From an uncultured Verrucomicrobiales bacterium (GTDB taxonomy: Bacteria > Verrucomicrobiota > Verrucomicrobiia > Verrucomicrobiales > Akkermansiaceae): 64,000 bases of DNA. The stretch covers positions 62,001-126,000 of the forward strand of contig CALGZA010000031.1 of assembly GCA_937934595.1 (NCBI GenBank), given 5' to 3'. The notes below the pieces were generated by a model. The model was given only the letters and a program-made list of their open reading frames with translations, was not told where the DNA came from and made no database searches. The position numbers were made by a program, and so were the translations under genes. Every line of letters begins with the position of its first letter. The first letter of the stretch is position 1. Below are positions 55,359 to 64,000 of this stretch, piece after piece.

Positions 55359-58300
55359 TTAGAGGCAGATTTTTCTTTTAACAGCTTGATCACATGCTTT
55401 TCTACCAAACATGTAGAACACAGCAGGTGTTATGGCTAGTCCGAGAATTGTGCTGGAGATGAGTCCTCCAGTAATAGCGATGGCGATAGGGCTAAGAATT
55501 TCCTTTCCTGATTCACCCGATGCAAGGACGAGTGGGATGAGAGCAATACCAGCAGAGAATGCTGTCAATAGCACTGGCAGTAGTCGTTCTTTTGTGCCTC
55601 GTATTATGAGTTCTTTACCAAAGTTCATTCCTTCTTCACTCATCAGCATGATGTAGTGAGAAATGAGCATGATGGAGTTACGCGCTGAGATTCCTGCTAC
55701 CGCGATGAAGCCCACTAATGATGCGATGGAGATAGGGATCTCCATAAAGTGAGTGAACAGAACAGCACCTATCAGTGAGAGTGGAATGTCCGTGATGACT
55801 TGGAGCACGAAGTTTATCGAGCCAAAGTAACTGAACAAGAGTACTGAGACGATCAGTAAGACTCCAATCGACCAGTTGGTAATTTTTTCAGCTGATTCCT
55901 GCTGGGCTATGTATTCGCCTTCGATAGTGATTGTTTCTGCTGGATATTGTTCTTTGATTTTTCTGTCCAGTGCTCCTACAACAGATAGTAGATCCCTGTT
56001 GGTTGGGTTGATAGCAACAGAAAATGTGCGTTCGTTGTTTTCACGGTTAATAACGTTCGGTCCTTTGGCTTGTAGAATCTCTGCTACTTGGTAGACTTGG
56101 ATTTGTTTTCCCACTCCATTGGTGATGTATAGATTTCGAATTTTATCTTCTGACTGACGAATATCGTTATCCAACCTAGAAACTATTCTAATGATCCGTT
56201 CACCCTCGTAAACTTCTAACAGTTTAGCACCATTGAGGAAGTTATGGATCTGATCATTAAAGGATTTAGGGGTGATTCCGTATACGCTGCCACGCTCTCT
56301 ATTAAAAAGGATTTGTAGCTGAGGGATAGCTGCTTGCTGTGCTATCTGAGCATCTTCTAAGCCAGGAATAGACTGACAAATATTTTGGATGCCGGTGCCG
56401 ATATTACGGAGGTGGTCTAAATCACGTCCAGATATCTTTACCACGACTTTGGCACTGACTCCTGAGAGCATGTGTCCGATACGGTCAGTTAGAGGACCGC
56501 TTACTACTGAGAATGTTCCCACTAGTGACTTCATTTTAGTCTTTATCTCATCGATTATTTCTTTACGACTTCGCGTGATGTGCTCATCAAATTCGATGTC
56601 AAACTCAACTGTAGAAACGGGGACCACGTGGTCACCATTTTCCGCTCTTCCAGCTCGGTGACCAACAGTCTTTATCCCATCAATATTTACTAGCATTTTA
56701 TCAACCGATAGACCAAGTTTATGGGTGACTTCAAGTGAGGTTCCGGGTGCAGTGGTCATCGCGACTATGAGGGTTTCTTCTTTGAATTTAGGTAGGAATT
56801 CTTTTGGCATTTTCATAAAAGTAAGAATGCTAAAAGTGAGAATGATAAGTCCAATAGCTATAGTCAGCGTAGGTAAACGTAATGCTACTTTCATGAAGGT
56901 GAGTTCAAGTAACTTCTTAAGTGTTCTAATGATGATGCCGTCTTTGTGCTCAATATTTTCTCTAGGCTTCAAGAAGATGGAGCATAGCGCAGGAATTACT
57001 GTTAGTGAGACGATGAATGATGCTACCATGCTTGCTATTGTAGCGGTAGCTATAGGGGTGAATAGGCGACCTTGGAGACCTGACAGAGCCAGCAAAGGCA
57101 CGAATACAAGGATAATGAATATAGTTGCGTAGAGAATGGAATTACGAACTTCTCCGGACGCCTTTGCGATCACTTCTATGCGTGGTCTGGGATTTGCGGC
57201 TGAAACATTTTCTTTGAGTCTGCGGAGGACGTTTTCAATATCTACAATGGCATCATCTACAACGATTCCGATGGCTACAGCAAGTCCACCCAAGGTCATC
57301 GAGTTCACACTGATATCCATCACTGTGAAAATGAGTATGGTGACAGCAAATGACAGCGGTATAGCAGTCAATGTTATGAGAGTGGTTACTAAGGAGGTAC
57401 GCGGATTTTTTAGATTGAAAAGGAAGATGAAGAGTATGATGACTACCATAATAGCTCCGTCTCTTATGGCTTCAAAGAGATTATCCATGGCTGCATTAAT
57501 GAATGATGCTTGTTTGAAAAGAGAAGTAAGTTTGATGTCTTTACCTTCAGCTTCAATTTGACGCGACATTTCTTCTAAGACGTTCTGAATTTCTGTGGTG
57601 AGAGTGCGGGTGTCCACACCTGGGGATTTTACCACACTCAAAATAACTCCTTTTTGACCATTGACTCCAGCTTCTCCGCGCTGGGGTTGGATGGCCCATT
57701 CTACTTTGGCAACGTCCGCCAGAGTGATGGTGCGATCACCCACTTTTTTTATAGTGGTGAGCTTAATTTCATCGAGATCAGAGGTCATGGAGAGCACGCG
57801 AATCATCTGTTCACGTGAGCGCTCGGTGACATATCCTCCTGTGGTATTGCTGGCTACTTGAGAGATTGCTTGATTTATTTCATTTGCGGAAATTCCGTAT
57901 GCGAGCATTTTCTCAGGAATGATTTTCACTTGTATCTGCTGGACTCCTCCTCCCATTGATAAAGAGTCAACTACACCTGGGAGCTTCATGATCTGCTTAC
58001 GCAGAGTCCAGTCCGAGTATGTGCGCAAATCAGAGGGTGAGATTTCATCGTTGGGCGAAGTGATGCCGATGAGCATGACTTCTCCCATGAGCGATGCGAC
58101 AGGAGTGAGCTGAGGCATGATACCAGCTTCCAACTCTACACTACCTAGGCGCTCTTGCACAAATTGTCTAGCACGGTAGATATCTGTGCCCCACTCGAAC
58201 TCGACCACAACGAGCGAGAGCCCCACGTCAGTTTTTGACTGAAGTCTGGTGATTCCTTGGATGCCATTGACGGCTTTTTCGATTGGTATGGTTACGTAGT

Positions 58301-58487
58301 TTTCTACTTCCTCTGGAGCCTTTCCGGGGACTTCTGTCATGATGGTGACACGAGGTTTAGTAAGATCTGGCAGGACTTCCACAGGGAGTTTATTACCCTG
58401 GATGATTCCAGCGACAATGATTGTGGCAGCAACGGCTAGGACGATGAGCCTATTCTGCAATGATTTTATGATTAAAAAATTTAACAT
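55359..58487 (-). CDS. heavy-metal efflux RND permease (CzcA/CusA type)
   Basis: A 1042-residue inner-membrane proton/metal antiporter with 12 transmembrane helices and two large periplasmic loops. The N-terminus has the RND first helix (LIVLAVAATIIVAGIIQGNKLPVEVLPDLTKPRVTIMTEVPG). TM4 carries the acidic relay VVDDAIVDIENVLRRL. TM10-12 contain VGFIAVAGISARNSIMLI and LTAFSAGIALIPLVLASGESGKEI. The acidic motif supports the heavy-metal (HME) class. Metal specificity cannot be assigned. It is the fourth gene of the operon; the start is 18 nt after the adaptor stop. Confidence 0.92.
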   Translation of the reverse strand: MLNFLIIKSLQNRLIVLAVAATIIVAGIIQGNKLPVEVLPDLTKPRVTIMTEVPGKAPEEVENYVTIPIEKAVNGIQGITRLQSKTDVGLSLVVVEFEWGTDIYRARQFVQERLGSVELEAGIMPQLTPVASLMGEVMLIGITSPNDEISPSDLRTYSDWTLRKQIMKLPGVVDSLSMGGGVQQIQVKIIPEKMLAYGISANEINQAISQVASNTTGGYVTERSREQMIRVLSMTSDLDEIKLTTIKKVGDRTITLADVAKVEWAIQPQRGEAGVNGQKGVILSVVKSPGVDTRTLTTEIQNVLEEMSRQIEAEGKDIKLTSLFKQASFINAAMDNLFEAIRDGAIMVVIILFIFLFNLKNPRTSLVTTLITLTAIPLSFAVTILIFTVMDISVNSMTLGGLAVAIGIVVDDAIVDIENVLRRLKENVSAANPRPRIEVIAKASGEVRNSILYATIFIILVFVPLLALSGLQGRLFTPIATATIASMVASFIVSLTVIPALCSIFLKPRENIEHKDGIIIRTLKKLLELTFMKVALRLPTLTIAIGLIILTFSILTFMKMPKEFLPKFKEETLIVAMTTAPGTSLEVTHKLGLSVDKMLVNIDGIKTVGHRAGRAENGDHVVPVSTVEFDIEFDEHITRSRKEIIDEIKTKMKSLVGTFSVVSGPLTDRIGHMLSGVSAKVVVKISGRDLDHLRNIGTGIQNICQSIPGLEDAQIAQQAAIPQLQILFNRERGSVYGITPKSFNDQIHNFLNGAKLLEVYEGERIIRIVSRLDNDIRQSEDKIRNLYITNGVGKQIQVYQVAEILQAKGPNVINRENNERTFSVAINPTNRDLLSVVGALDRKIKEQYPAETITIEGEYIAQQESAEKITNWSIGVLLIVSVLLFSYFGSINFVLQVITDIPLSLIGAVLFTHFMEIPISIASLVGFIAVAGISARNSIMLISHYIMLMSEEGMNFGKELIIRGTKERLLPVLLTAFSAGIALIPLVLASGESGKEILSPIAIAITGGLISSTILGLAITPAVFYMFGRKACDQAVKRKICL

Positions 58488-58505
58488 AATATGAAATGGT
58501 CAGAA

Positions 58506-59630
58506 TTAACTTACATCCTTCTTACGGAAGATGGTAAAGATGAGGAGTATAAGCAGGATACCGCATGCCGTATAAAGCAGGACGCGCTCAGTGCTAGATG
58601 GCCCTTGCTCAGCGGAGCCTCCTCCAGCAGTGGCTTTCGCAGCAGCTACTTGCTGTGGTGTGATTTCAGATCCGTCTGTGTTGTGCTTATGACCGTGTGC
58701 CTCATCGAGCGCTTTCACTAAATCATTTTTATCTGGGTTAGTGTGTGAAAGGAAATAACCTCCTTCAGTCACAATGTCGTCGATTACATTGAGTTCTTTA
58801 TTTTGGAGTATGATTTCTGCTCTATCACTGTTCACCTTACCAACTACAACAGGAACTTTTCTAAAAGCGTGATCAATTTCGTAATCACGCTTGAATACAT
58901 GAGAATTTAGCTGATCACCTTGGATAGCTGATTTAGGGACTGAGAAAACCTTAGGTCTAGAGCTAATGACTATATTGAACTCCGTGAGCATATTAGGGCG
59001 TATCTCTAGATCTGGGTTGTCGAGTAAAAATATAGCTTTGATTGTACCTGAGCTAGTGTTTGCTTCTGTGCCAAAACGAAAGAGTTTCCCTTCAAAGGTT
59101 TTATTTCCTAATGAGATGATTTTGATTTGAGCTGACTGCCCGACTTTGACGTGCGCTGCCTTACTCTCAGGAATGTCAGCAACTGCCCAGACTTTTGATA
59201 TATCGATAATATACATCAGTTCTTCACTGGGTTCTATTGGTTGACCGAGATTAATATGGCTTTTGAATACCATGCCGCCTGCAGGAGCTTTCACAGGGAT
59301 CACTGGAGGAGGGGACCCTGGCTGGCGACTCTCTACTTTAAGAACAATTTGCCCTTGTTCTACAATGTCGCCGATAACTGGTGGACGAGTAACTACTCTC
59401 CCAGCTATGCGTGAACTGACTAAAGTTATGCTGCTCGGAGTAGCTTCGATACGACCTATCGCAAAGAGTGTTTTCTCAAAGGTGGTAATCTTGGGGTTCG
59501 CAGTGAGAATCCCTGCGTTTTTTTCTTTGATAGCATCCAGAGGAATGAGATTATCTGTATTTTCTTCTGCTATTGCTAGCGGCGATACGAGGATGATACA
59601 AGTGGTAATAAATGTGATAATTGTTTTCAT
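58506..59630 (-). CDS. RND membrane fusion protein (CzcB/CusB type) with C-terminal membrane helix
   Basis: A 374-residue adaptor. A signal peptide (1-21) is followed by a barrel-sandwich/lipoyl region (VSSRIAGRVVTRPPVIGDIVEQGQIVL ... VKAPAGGMVFKSHINLGQPI), a beta-barrel (VADIPESKAAHVKVGQSAQIK) and a membrane-proximal domain. A His-rich segment (DEAHGHKHN) and an unusual C-terminal hydrophobic helix with basic end (VLLYTACGILLILLIFTIFRKK) close the protein. Most adaptors have only an N-terminal anchor. It lies between the outer-membrane factor gene (11 nt) and the permease gene. Confidence 0.9.
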   Translation of the reverse strand: MKTIITFITTCIILVSPLAIAEENTDNLIPLDAIKEKNAGILTANPKITTFEKTLFAIGRIEATPSSITLVSSRIAGRVVTRPPVIGDIVEQGQIVLKVESRQPGSPPPVIPVKAPAGGMVFKSHINLGQPIEPSEELMYIIDISKVWAVADIPESKAAHVKVGQSAQIKIISLGNKTFEGKLFRFGTEANTSSGTIKAIFLLDNPDLEIRPNMLTEFNIVISSRPKVFSVPKSAIQGDQLNSHVFKRDYEIDHAFRKVPVVVGKVNSDRAEIILQNKELNVIDDIVTEGGYFLSHTNPDKNDLVKALDEAHGHKHNTDGSEITPQQVAAAKATAGGGSAEQGPSSTERVLLYTACGILLILLIFTIFRKKDVS

Positions 59631-59641
59631 GGTGGTGATGA

Positions 59642-60955
59642 TTAAAAGGCTGAGTTTGGTTTACCGAGAGCTGCGAAATATTTGACGCGTGCTTGGTGGA
59701 ATTTGAGATTGTTATCAATGAGCGAAGCGCGAAGCTCTAGCTCTTGAGTTTTGGATTTAAGGAAGCTTGTGAAGTCTCCTTGTCCTTTCTTGTAGGCGGT
59801 TTCTAGATCGGTAGTAGTTTTCTCAGCTAATGGTAAGAGCTCCTTTCTAACAGATGCGTTTTGTGCCATCCACGTTTGCATCCCCTGCTTGTGGGTAGCT
59901 ACTTGGAGACGGATCTCAGAGGCTAGTGCGCCGCGTTCTAAAACACTTCGCTGTGCCTTAGCGATAGCGGCTTCAATGTTACCCTCGTTTTTATCATAGA
60001 AGGGCAGCGGGATAGATAGCCCTATGCCAATCCTGCCTTCAGTCTCTATTCCCTCGGGCGCATCTTCTTCTCTACCGAGTGCTCCTAGGACGGAAACTTC
60101 TACATCATCATAACGTTTGGATTTCTCTAACAGAATATTGCTTTTAGAGTGCTGAAATTCTAATGCCTTAGCACGAAAGTCTGCTCTATCTGAGAGTGAC
60201 AAAGTGCGTGATGGGATGTTGAGTGACGGGAGTGAACCAGATAAATTCAGTGGTTTAGAAGCGGGCAGGCCGATGTATTGCTTAAGTTTTGTAGTGAGTA
60301 GGTTGTGTTCACCAGCGAGTTGTTTCTTTTTGATGCTGAGAGTTTGGATTTTTAGTTTGGTCTGGGCTGCATCTAGCTGTGAGAGTTCGCCTTTTGCGGC
60401 GGCTTCATCAATGAATTTAGTGATGTTAGTCAGTGATGAGATCTGTTTGTCGATGTTTGCAGACTGGCTTCGCAGTTGAAGGATTTCTACTGCAATGATC
60501 TGGGCTGCAGTAATGAGTTGTTGCTCTGCCATTTTGATTTCCTCTTTGGCGATGAGTAGCTGGTCAGCAGAGACACGTTTCTCTAGGTTGAGCTTATTGG
60601 TGATAGGGAAGCGCTGAGAAAAACTTACCTCTAGCTCGCCTTGGGAACCGGGTATGATCTTGTTGGCACCTATCCCTAGGGTGGGGTTAGCGCGTCTTCC
60701 AGATTGGTTGAGTCGTCCAGCGCTCTCTGCTATCTTGAGTTTTGCGGCGCGTAGTTGTGGGTTGTTGTTGCTTATTCGTCTGGCGAGGGCACTTATATTA
60801 AGGGAGCTACTATAGTTTTTGGGACGTAGTTTACTGGAGAAGTTTGGCAGGTCTGCTTCGTCGGAGAGGACGATACGCTTTTTCTCAAGACTGGCGCATG
60901 AGCTAAGCATAGCGATAGTACCTGTGGTGATGATAAATTGTTTGTGAAATTTCAT
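59642..60955 (-). CDS. outer-membrane efflux factor (CzcC/CusC/TolC family) lipoprotein
   Basis: 437 residues from the ATG at 60955. The upstream part of the frame to 61042 has no family match, and the lipobox argues for this start. Lipobox AMLSSC (Cys20). Two OEP repeats follow, mostly alpha-helical: LARRISNNNPQLRAAKLKIAESAGRLNQSGRRANPTLG begins the first, and GIGLSIPLPFYDKNEGNIEAA begins the second. It forms the outer-membrane channel of the tripartite pump. It is followed by the adaptor gene after 11 nt. Confidence 0.9.
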   Translation of the reverse strand: MKFHKQFIITTGTIAMLSSCASLEKKRIVLSDEADLPNFSSKLRPKNYSSSLNISALARRISNNNPQLRAAKLKIAESAGRLNQSGRRANPTLGIGANKIIPGSQGELEVSFSQRFPITNKLNLEKRVSADQLLIAKEEIKMAEQQLITAAQIIAVEILQLRSQSANIDKQISSLTNITKFIDEAAAKGELSQLDAAQTKLKIQTLSIKKKQLAGEHNLLTTKLKQYIGLPASKPLNLSGSLPSLNIPSRTLSLSDRADFRAKALEFQHSKSNILLEKSKRYDDVEVSVLGALGREEDAPEGIETEGRIGIGLSIPLPFYDKNEGNIEAAIAKAQRSVLERGALASEIRLQVATHKQGMQTWMAQNASVRKELLPLAEKTTTDLETAYKKGQGDFTSFLKSKTQELELRASLIDNNLKFHQARVKYFAALGKPNSAF

Positions 60956-61069
60956 GATGAAAATTGAAAAAATGGGTGTGCGATCAATGCACGAAAAAAA
61001 GGTTCCTAGAAATATTAGGAAATTAAAAGGGAGCCAAACCACTCAAGAGGTTTAGCAAGAAAAAGTATA

Positions 61070-61662: not shown

Positions 61663-64000
61663 TTATTTTGATTTTAGGGGAGATAGGGTGAAGGATTTGA
61701 CTGCAATACCTGCTTGTGGAGGTAGCCGGCGGAAGATGTCTAGTGTGTTTATGCCTTTTTTTAGTTCTAGGGTTATTTTTTGAGTGGTATTTGTCCAGTT
61801 ACCTTTGGTGAAGGGAAGTGTTAGATTATTAGGGGTGTTTCCGTTAATGCTTACCATGAGGTGCTGGCCGTAGTTGTTGGTTACGACGTTGGCGTGGAAG
61901 TGGTATTTACCAGGTTTTATGGCGTTCACTGTGTAGCTGAGATGTGATTGTTTTTGGATAGATGGTCCTGTGGGATCTATTTTATCACCTTGTTTGTAGT
62001 AGTTTTTGTCGTATCTATCAGCGACACGTTCTAGTGCGTTTCCGTAGATGTCATAAAGTCCCCATGGGTTTGGTTTTTTTTGTCCAACTGGGTTTGTTTT
62101 TTCTTTTGAGTTTGTTTTTGTCCAAGCGTATTCGTTGAGATTAGTGTCTGAGTTTCCGAAGAAGTATTTTGTGTTGGTTCCTGCTCTAGCTGCGTATTCC
62201 CATTCTGCTTCTGATGGTAGTCTTATGATTTTGGTTGTTTTTTCTGATGCTAATTCGCAGAATTTGAGTGCATCTTGCTCGGAGATGTTAATGGCTGGGA
62301 AGTTAGGTTTTTTTGAAGTGATGGAGGGGTTAGAGCTGGTGATGGCTTGAAGCTGAGCTTGAGTGACCTCGTATTTACCTAGATAATATCCTTTGGTGAG
62401 AGTTACTTTGTGTTTTGGAAGCTCAATGCATTGGAATCTTCCGTCTTTGGTGCTTTCGCCGCCCATGGTGAATGTGCCTGGTTTGATATAGACTAGGTCC
62501 ATGTTTATTCCTTTACCGAGATCGATAGTGATTTCTTTGGGGGTTTTTGATCCTTCTGTTGGGGTCATGGCTACGCGGAATCCCCAGTCATTGTAGCGAC
62601 CGTATCCACCGCTTTTTATTCTTGCGCCGGAGGATATGGTTCTGAGGACAGTGAGTCCCTTAGGGGTGAATCTGCCCATATTGATTTGGAGTCCTTTGTG
62701 GTAGCTTTTTAATACTTTGTTTCTGCCAGGGTTTTTATCAAATGCTGCAGCTGGGATGGTTATTATGTCATTTTTATATGTGATTTTTTTATCATTATCT
62801 GTGACGGTTGATTCTGTGACGGTGTCAGGGCCTTTTGGTGCGGCATTTGATTCACCGATTTCTGCGCCTAGAGCAGCAAGTTCTTTTGCGTTTGAGTTTT
62901 CGATGATGTCGCGCTGTAATTGGAGTGAGAGATTTCCCCAGAATCCGGGTTTTTCTTGGCCGTGTTCCCCGTAGACGCGTTTTTCATCCATGACATCACC
63001 AAGCCACATGGCTCTTTTTACTGTGGGGTATTTGATACGATCATATCTAGCTTGTGATGAAGCGAGGAAGTTACGGTCCTTTTTGTAGGGGCCTGATGTC
63101 CAGCCACGTCCCCAACCTGGTCCTAGGTTAACGACCCAGGCTTTAGGTGTCCAGTGTGTGAGAGCGGCGTGTCCTTTGCTGGGTCTGGCGGCAGTGGGTA
63201 TGCCGAATGCTCTGAGAATGAATCTGCCAAAGAAAGCACGGCGTCCGCATATTCCACCGTTCATCATTATATTTTGAAACGATTGTAGTTCTGGGCGATC
63301 ATATTTGACGTCTCCTGATCCATATTTTACATCTGAGGCGACGATACGGACATAGCGCCAGCCGTAGTCTGGTGTGGTAATGTGGGCTGGCTGGTAATTA
63401 CGCAGCATGTTACGACCCCATGTTAAGATGTGGTTAGGTTCACTGCCGTCGACGACCATTCTTAGTTCCCATGCATTGAGGTTAGCGAAGGCTGGGTCTA
63501 GGTCTTTATTGAGGTATGCGTTTGCGAAGTAGAGGAATCGTTTTACTGGGTTTATGTGAGTTTCTGATGATTTGTCATTGATGGGATTAACTTGTATGAT
63601 GGGGACGGAGTGTTCGAGGGCGATGGCGATAGCAAGTTCTCGCAGAACTTTATCGTTACTATTAGGCATTTGCTTGATGATGTTAGCGTAAATTTCCATA
63701 GCAGGTCCGTATTGTGCTGCGCTGTGAGTATTACGGCCTAATTTGATTTTTTTAGCTCCGTCAGCGGTGAGCATGTCCCGCATCAAATCAGTATCTGATA
63801 GAAGTGATTTGACTAGTTGATGGTTTTTGGGGCTTTTCTGAGCAAATGAGGCAAGGCCCTTTGGTGTTGATTCCATGAGGACTATGTATTTTACGAGTGG
63901 TGGGTCTATGGTTCCGTGAGTGATGATTTTTGAGAAGCCGGATTGTATGAAGGTTTTTTTTGTATGTAGTTTAGCTTTTGTTAGTTTATCGGTGGCGGTT
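61663..64000 (-). CDS. transglutaminase-like + FGE-like + carbohydrate-binding-like protein, 5' end outside window
   Basis: The frame is open to the right edge, so at least 778 residues; numbering here is from Met at 63876. Residues about 110-260 resemble a transglutaminase core: MNGGICGRRAFFGRF (Cys210), GIPTAARPSKGHAALTHW (His236). Residues 371-402 (ITIPAAAFDKN...) look like the beginning of a beta-sandwich carbohydrate-binding module whose rest is at 645-735. Between them is a formylglycine-generating-enzyme-like domain: MDLVYIKPGTFTMGG (459-473), LGKYEVTQAQ, RLPSEAEWEYAARAG and LYDIYGNALERVAD (607-620). The usual C-terminal VLR...GFRVA segment lies before it (410-436). The catalytic Cys pair of true FGEs is not evident, so it may bind rather than oxidise. 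Confidence 0.72.
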   Translation of the reverse strand, partial: TATDKLTKAKLHTKKTFIQSGFSKIITHGTIDPPLVKYIVLMESTPKGLASFAQKSPKNHQLVKSLLSDTDLMRDMLTADGAKKIKLGRNTHSAAQYGPAMEIYANIIKQMPNSNDKVLRELAIAIALEHSVPIIQVNPINDKSSETHINPVKRFLYFANAYLNKDLDPAFANLNAWELRMVVDGSEPNHILTWGRNMLRNYQPAHITTPDYGWRYVRIVASDVKYGSGDVKYDRPELQSFQNIMMNGGICGRRAFFGRFILRAFGIPTAARPSKGHAALTHWTPKAWVVNLGPGWGRGWTSGPYKKDRNFLASSQARYDRIKYPTVKRAMWLGDVMDEKRVYGEHGQEKPGFWGNLSLQLQRDIIENSNAKELAALGAEIGESNAAPKGPDTVTESTVTDNDKKITYKNDIITIPAAAFDKNPGRNKVLKSYHKGLQINMGRFTPKGLTVLRTISSGARIKSGGYGRYNDWGFRVAMTPTEGSKTPKEITIDLGKGINMDLVYIKPGTFTMGGESTKDGRFQCIELPKHKVTLTKGYYLGKYEVTQAQLQAITSSNPSITSKKPNFPAINISEQDALKFCELASEKTTKIIRLPSEAEWEYAARAGTNTKYFFGNSDTNLNEYAWTKTNSKEKTNPVGQKKPNPWGLYDIYGNALERVADRYDKNYYKQGDKIDPTGPSIQKQSHLSYTVNAIKPGKYHFHANVVTNNYGQHLMVSINGNTPNNLTLPFTKGNWTNTTQKITLELKKGINTLDIFRRLPPQAGIAVKSFTLSPLKSK

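Follow-up and report, generated by a model that had tools for sequence, protein, structure and literature searches.

Evidence for a circularly permuted FGE-type domain nested within a CBM6/35-like module of verrucomicrobial proteins

The closest described structures to the domain discussed here have the FGE-type C-type-lectin (CLec) fold (PF03781), as in TvpA of Treponema denticola (2y3c), FGE, PvdO and EgtB. The family to which the domain belongs matches the same profile and has the same predicted fold (Z 18.7-20.6 to 2y3c), but its segments are swapped, it is nested in another domain and the catalytic cysteine pair of FGE is absent. In proteins with tandem FGE domains (such as L122 and L125) the last part of copy 1 together with the first part of copy 2 is colinear with the permuted unit. 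The latter, in contrast, is a single out-of-register unit inside a module resembling a carbohydrate-binding module (CBM), and in the tree it is not found among the tandem copies. The surrounding module resembles CBM6 and CBM35, in that its family profile matches solved chains of these families, but it is interrupted by the FGE domain. The insertional domains of RNA polymerase are inserted and also circularly permuted, as cited in PMC13114784. As described there they combine insertion and permutation in one domain, as here, in another fold and another host. The literature searched, with subscription papers mostly outside its scope, gave no earlier report of a permuted insert in the FGE superfamily.

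The gene is located at the end of the window, by which is meant the whole stretch of 64,000 nucleotides that was analysed, and its features are itemized in Table 1. Translation confirms that the sequence there matches its first description, and the visible part comprises the last 778 residues of the protein. The original prediction began the open reading frame at 63876, which was wrong; the frame runs on for 530 bases past the edge of the window, giving a protein of 955 rather than 737 amino acids. The residue numbers used here are the earlier ones plus 218. Starting at the N terminus the protein has a hydrophobic leader with a possible lipobox (LIGC, judged by eye), followed by a probable coiled coil ahead of a domain with conserved C428 and H454. 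The long coiled coil is kept in the window protein (L007:664-3531) and is lacking in most of the other permuted relatives compared (L013-L016); the insert-less relatives also have an N-terminal coiled coil. Genes resembling those of CusCBA-type heavy-metal RND efflux lie just downstream on the same strand (window 55359-61042). The product is likely to be an exported multidomain protein of a lineage that, judged by its relatives, is Verrucomicrobiota-like; in it the coiled coil is followed by a Cys/His enzyme-like domain and then by a CBM6/35-like sandwich carrying a permuted ligand-binding or scaffolding FGE domain in a loop.

Table 1. Features of the gene within the window, with residues numbered for the full-length protein
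Feature	Window coordinates	Strand	Residues and basis
Visible part of the gene	61663..64000	-	178-955 + stop of the 955-aa protein
N-terminal cysteine-enzyme-like domain ('transglutaminase-like')	62851..63723	-	~270-560; alignment and tree, 36 relatives
CBM6/35-like beta-sandwich, first half (KITYKND...NMG)	62674..62787	-	582-619; joined to the second half in insert-less relatives
Displaced FGE C-terminal segment (RFTPKGLTVLR...GFRVAMTPT)	62557..62673	-	620-658; profile comparison
GFRVA strand, beta-5 equivalent	62569..62583	-	650-654; placed with high confidence in the insert model
Linker from native FGE C-terminus to native N-terminus	62515..62556	-	659-672; aligns with the linker between copies in tandem FGE proteins
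FGE N-terminal part	61960..62514	-	673-857; PF03781 positions 4-199 of 255
CBM6/35-like module, second half	61672..61941	-	864-953; alignment to insert-less relatives

The description of the N-terminal domain as transglutaminase-like is unsupported as it was stated. C428 and H454 are invariant in 36 aligned proteins, and the position of N468 is variable. The domain has no Pfam match in any of 28 members, including to Transglut_core (PF01841), and profile-profile comparison with hhalign gave only a weak match to transglutaminase (probability 5%, E 0.007), with the cysteine motif aligned.

The sole Pfam match above cut-off in the window protein is to FGE-sulfatase (PF03781) at residues 678-846, with 113.3 bits against a cut-off of 23.3 (E 2e-32). 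The relatives score 110-121 bits with this profile, and searching contigs with the full protein gave FGE matches only. As the match stops at position 199 of 255, the last fifth of FGE is absent from its expected place. A canonical profile that owed nothing to the permuted family was built from 18 FGE domains from elsewhere. Eight full-length relatives from other genomes of the phylum are each matched twice by this profile, from ~197-201 to 235-238 in the first match and from 3-4 to 192-195 in the second. The C-part thus lies ahead of the N-part in all eight, and in none of them was a second FGE C-part found downstream of the N-part with the canonical profile. The displaced piece reads (I/L)(M/L/V)RGG(S/T)(W/L)...G(F/L)R.A in these relatives, which is the pattern of the FGE C terminus. 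On de-permutation they score 230.7-244.0 bits compared with 215.8-230.0 in the native order, a gain of 8.1-16.8 bits, and in each of the eight the de-permuted score is above those of 1000/1000 shuffles of the displaced piece. For L013 the Pfam FGE match extends from positions 4-201 to 4-254 when de-permuted, and a de-permuted relative aligns to positions 162-293 of the 294 of 2y3c, i.e. almost to the last residue.

The window protein lacks nine in-frame residues within the displaced piece (RGGTWKGDA in the relatives), and is from the only genome so affected. When de-permuted it scores 221.3 bits against a mean of 220.6 for shuffled pieces, with 183 of 1000 shuffles as good. The window protein alone was accordingly rejected as proof of permutation, and because its copy fails the shuffle test the relatives are needed to show it. 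The original prediction had placed the C-terminal hallmark of FGE before the N-terminal part; this holds by profile and by shuffling in the eight relatives, while the GFRVA clue on which it was founded could not alone settle the window copy. Since the RGGTW core is lost and residues 619-646 are unmodelled (see below), this copy of the displaced piece may be decaying, or may be specialised. The likeness to FGE could in principle have arisen by chance, with the leading RGG...GFR piece being part of the CBM-like module, and in the window protein that likeness is no better than for shuffled sequence. This is extremely unlikely, given that the match to the FGE C-part beats every shuffle in all eight relatives, and that the FGE-less relatives are without the leading piece altogether.

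The position of the domain within the sandwich is clear from proteins that do not contain it. At least 18 insert-less proteins with the same N-terminal domain align to residues 1-620 of the window protein and then directly to 864-953, with few residues between. The two halves of the module are contiguous in these FGE-less relatives, and residues ~620-862 are therefore an insert in a single beta-sandwich loop. The nesting of FGE between two halves of such a module, as originally proposed, is supported by these proteins, which run straight across the point of insertion. The further assignment of the module as carbohydrate-binding-like stands at the level of the family, whose profile matches CBM6/35 chains of known structure (E 5.7e-10 at best), and not at that of single proteins, in which CBM6/35 matches are below the Pfam cut-offs (seen in 10 of 28 members).

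The order module-N, FGE-C, FGE-N, module-C is the same in all eight full-length relatives, so that a search for it in other proteins gave a positive answer. Of the permuted relatives, five came from a sample of 190 genomes of the order, one from 384 of the class, and the other two, which belong to another class, from 387 of the phylum; these samples overlap, and with the window's own the total is nine genomes. As nine genomes share the arrangement it is not an assembly error, and is a real, inherited rearrangement. Examination of 131 frames with FGE showed C before N in members of the permuted family only. One genome (G498) carries a permuted paralogue as well as one without the insert. In a tree of the N-terminal (TG) domain the seven permuted members then known form one clade (93/86, and present in 94% of bootstrap trees). 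All nine inserts likewise form one clade in a tree of FGE domains made by a quick method (SH-aLRT 99), where the nearest to them is L128, a single FGE of normal order from the same order of bacteria (support 90). The sequence trees of both domains fit a single origin of the permuted insert.

The structure of the insert alone was predicted by AlphaFold, using an alignment of 30 other rows that did not include the orthologues from the genome searches. The model has a pTM of 0.80, and most of the N-part is at pLDDT >90. Its best structural match is 2y3c (Z 18.7, rmsd 2.4, 186 aligned). The section W649-T658, which includes GFRVA, has a pLDDT of ~93, so that in the model this strand appears to close the FGE fold. 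Residues 619-646 are at pLDDT about 29-43, and when the CBM halves are present the FGE C-part is at 36-46. Prediction had been expected to show a closed FGE fold made with the leading segment (408-437 in the earlier numbering); the GFRVA strand is placed confidently, and residues 619-646 are not placed.

The domain might alternatively be what is left of a decayed tandem FGE pair, in which case the leading piece would be a non-folding relic beside a truncated FGE, and there would be no working permutation. The missing nine core residues of the window copy and the disorder of residues 619-646 in the AlphaFold model would be consistent with this, and tandem FGE arrays show the same order of segments. 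We consider it unlikely, since a relic would not stay conserved as the C-part has in eight relatives, two of them from a different class, where both the RGG[ST] core and the reading frame are kept, and since even the model of the window copy places the GFRVA strand with confidence. The interpretation as a circularly permuted FGE domain is supported, and in this the original prediction was largely right.

For the origin of the permuted domain we propose that a whole FGE-type C-type-lectin domain of ~240 amino acids was inserted, in circularly permuted form, into one loop of the sandwich. The chain would enter the insert at the native C-terminal strands, pass through a linker joining the native ends and then continue as the remainder of the domain. 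The new ends would come from a cut in a single native loop, at ~192-199 in the profile, and would suit insertion because they flank that cut loop. Permutation classically arises by tandem duplication, after which the outer parts are lost. Here the process would have started from FGE duplicated in tandem (or from an FGE repeat shifted in register), the outer pieces of which were later lost. Aligned with a tandem FGE protein, the insert is colinear from end to end with the junction of its copies 1 and 2, at 41-45% identity. Giant proteins with tandem FGE domains are present in the same order, L122 (G031:C4) having seven copies in a frame of 2462 aa and L125 (G031:C128) six in one of 1695 aa. Such arrays were rejected as the direct donor; they are colinear with the inserts, but the FGE tree puts the inserts beside a single FGE. 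The sequences examined included neither a tandem intermediate nor a direct donor, and as the inserts also fall outside the tandem arrays in the tree, the route is one that we infer. The joining of the native ends is plausible because in CLec folds the first and last strands, beta-1 and beta-5, lie paired where the chain naturally begins and ends (PMC5006420). A diversity-generating (DGR) origin was also considered and rejected, no intact DGR reverse transcriptase having been found in the genome (~96% complete), with only interrupted pieces of reverse transcriptase on other contigs.

The active-site cysteine pair of FGE is located in the C-terminal RGGS stretch. Sequence comparison shows that the pair is absent as such in the relatives, and that the window copy has lost this stretch. 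With the catalytic cysteines absent, formylglycine production is not expected and the inserted domain probably serves for binding. A genuine formylglycine-generating (or sulfoxide synthase-like) enzyme with neighbouring sulfatases as its targets would share the FGE fold, and sulfatases are abundant in these genomes, some of them adjoining the gene. The missing cysteines make such an enzyme very unlikely, as does the frequency of adjacent sulfatases, which is not above background. Among the immediate neighbours of the family 4/48 are sulfatases, compared with 8/173 other ORFs (p 0.25), and a sulfatase linkage was rejected on these figures. SASA/GQSN-type esterases make up 10/48 immediate neighbours against 3/173 other ORFs (Fisher p 1.8e-5); both counts come from 24 loci in related genomes with crude ORF calls, and at one of these (L204) the TG gene was unrecognised and the flanks were counted around the wrong position, with neither SASA nor sulfatase there. 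Esterases of this type adjoin TG-CBM family genes at L196, L198, L200, L210, L213, L214, L215 and L157. Neither a SASA nor a sulfatase gene directly adjoins the window copy; the closest gene of the SASA type lies at a distance of ~11.5 kb, in a genome with ~20 SASA matches. The same genome encodes proteins with a kinase-like N terminus and a C-terminal FGE-type domain (L008:2567-5203 and L011:3050-4588).

The permuted FGE domain would most likely act as a ligand-binding or scaffolding module beside the CBM-like module. The frequent position of the family next to SASA-type esterase genes suggests that the host may be an exported enzyme handling complex polysaccharides, possibly acetylated or sulfated. 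A more tentative and rather doubtful idea is that the permutation, by bringing the segment of the CLec ligand-binding face to the junction with the CBM-like loops, creates one composite binding site of FGE and CBM, delivering the N-terminal enzyme to its target.

Annotation with collinear profiles reports a permuted FGE domain of this kind as truncated. Examples of natural permutation and of domain insertion are known separately, but the two are rarely seen so cleanly in one event for which insert-less relatives exist. The family provides a testable case of a lectin-type fold entering another domain via its own loop.
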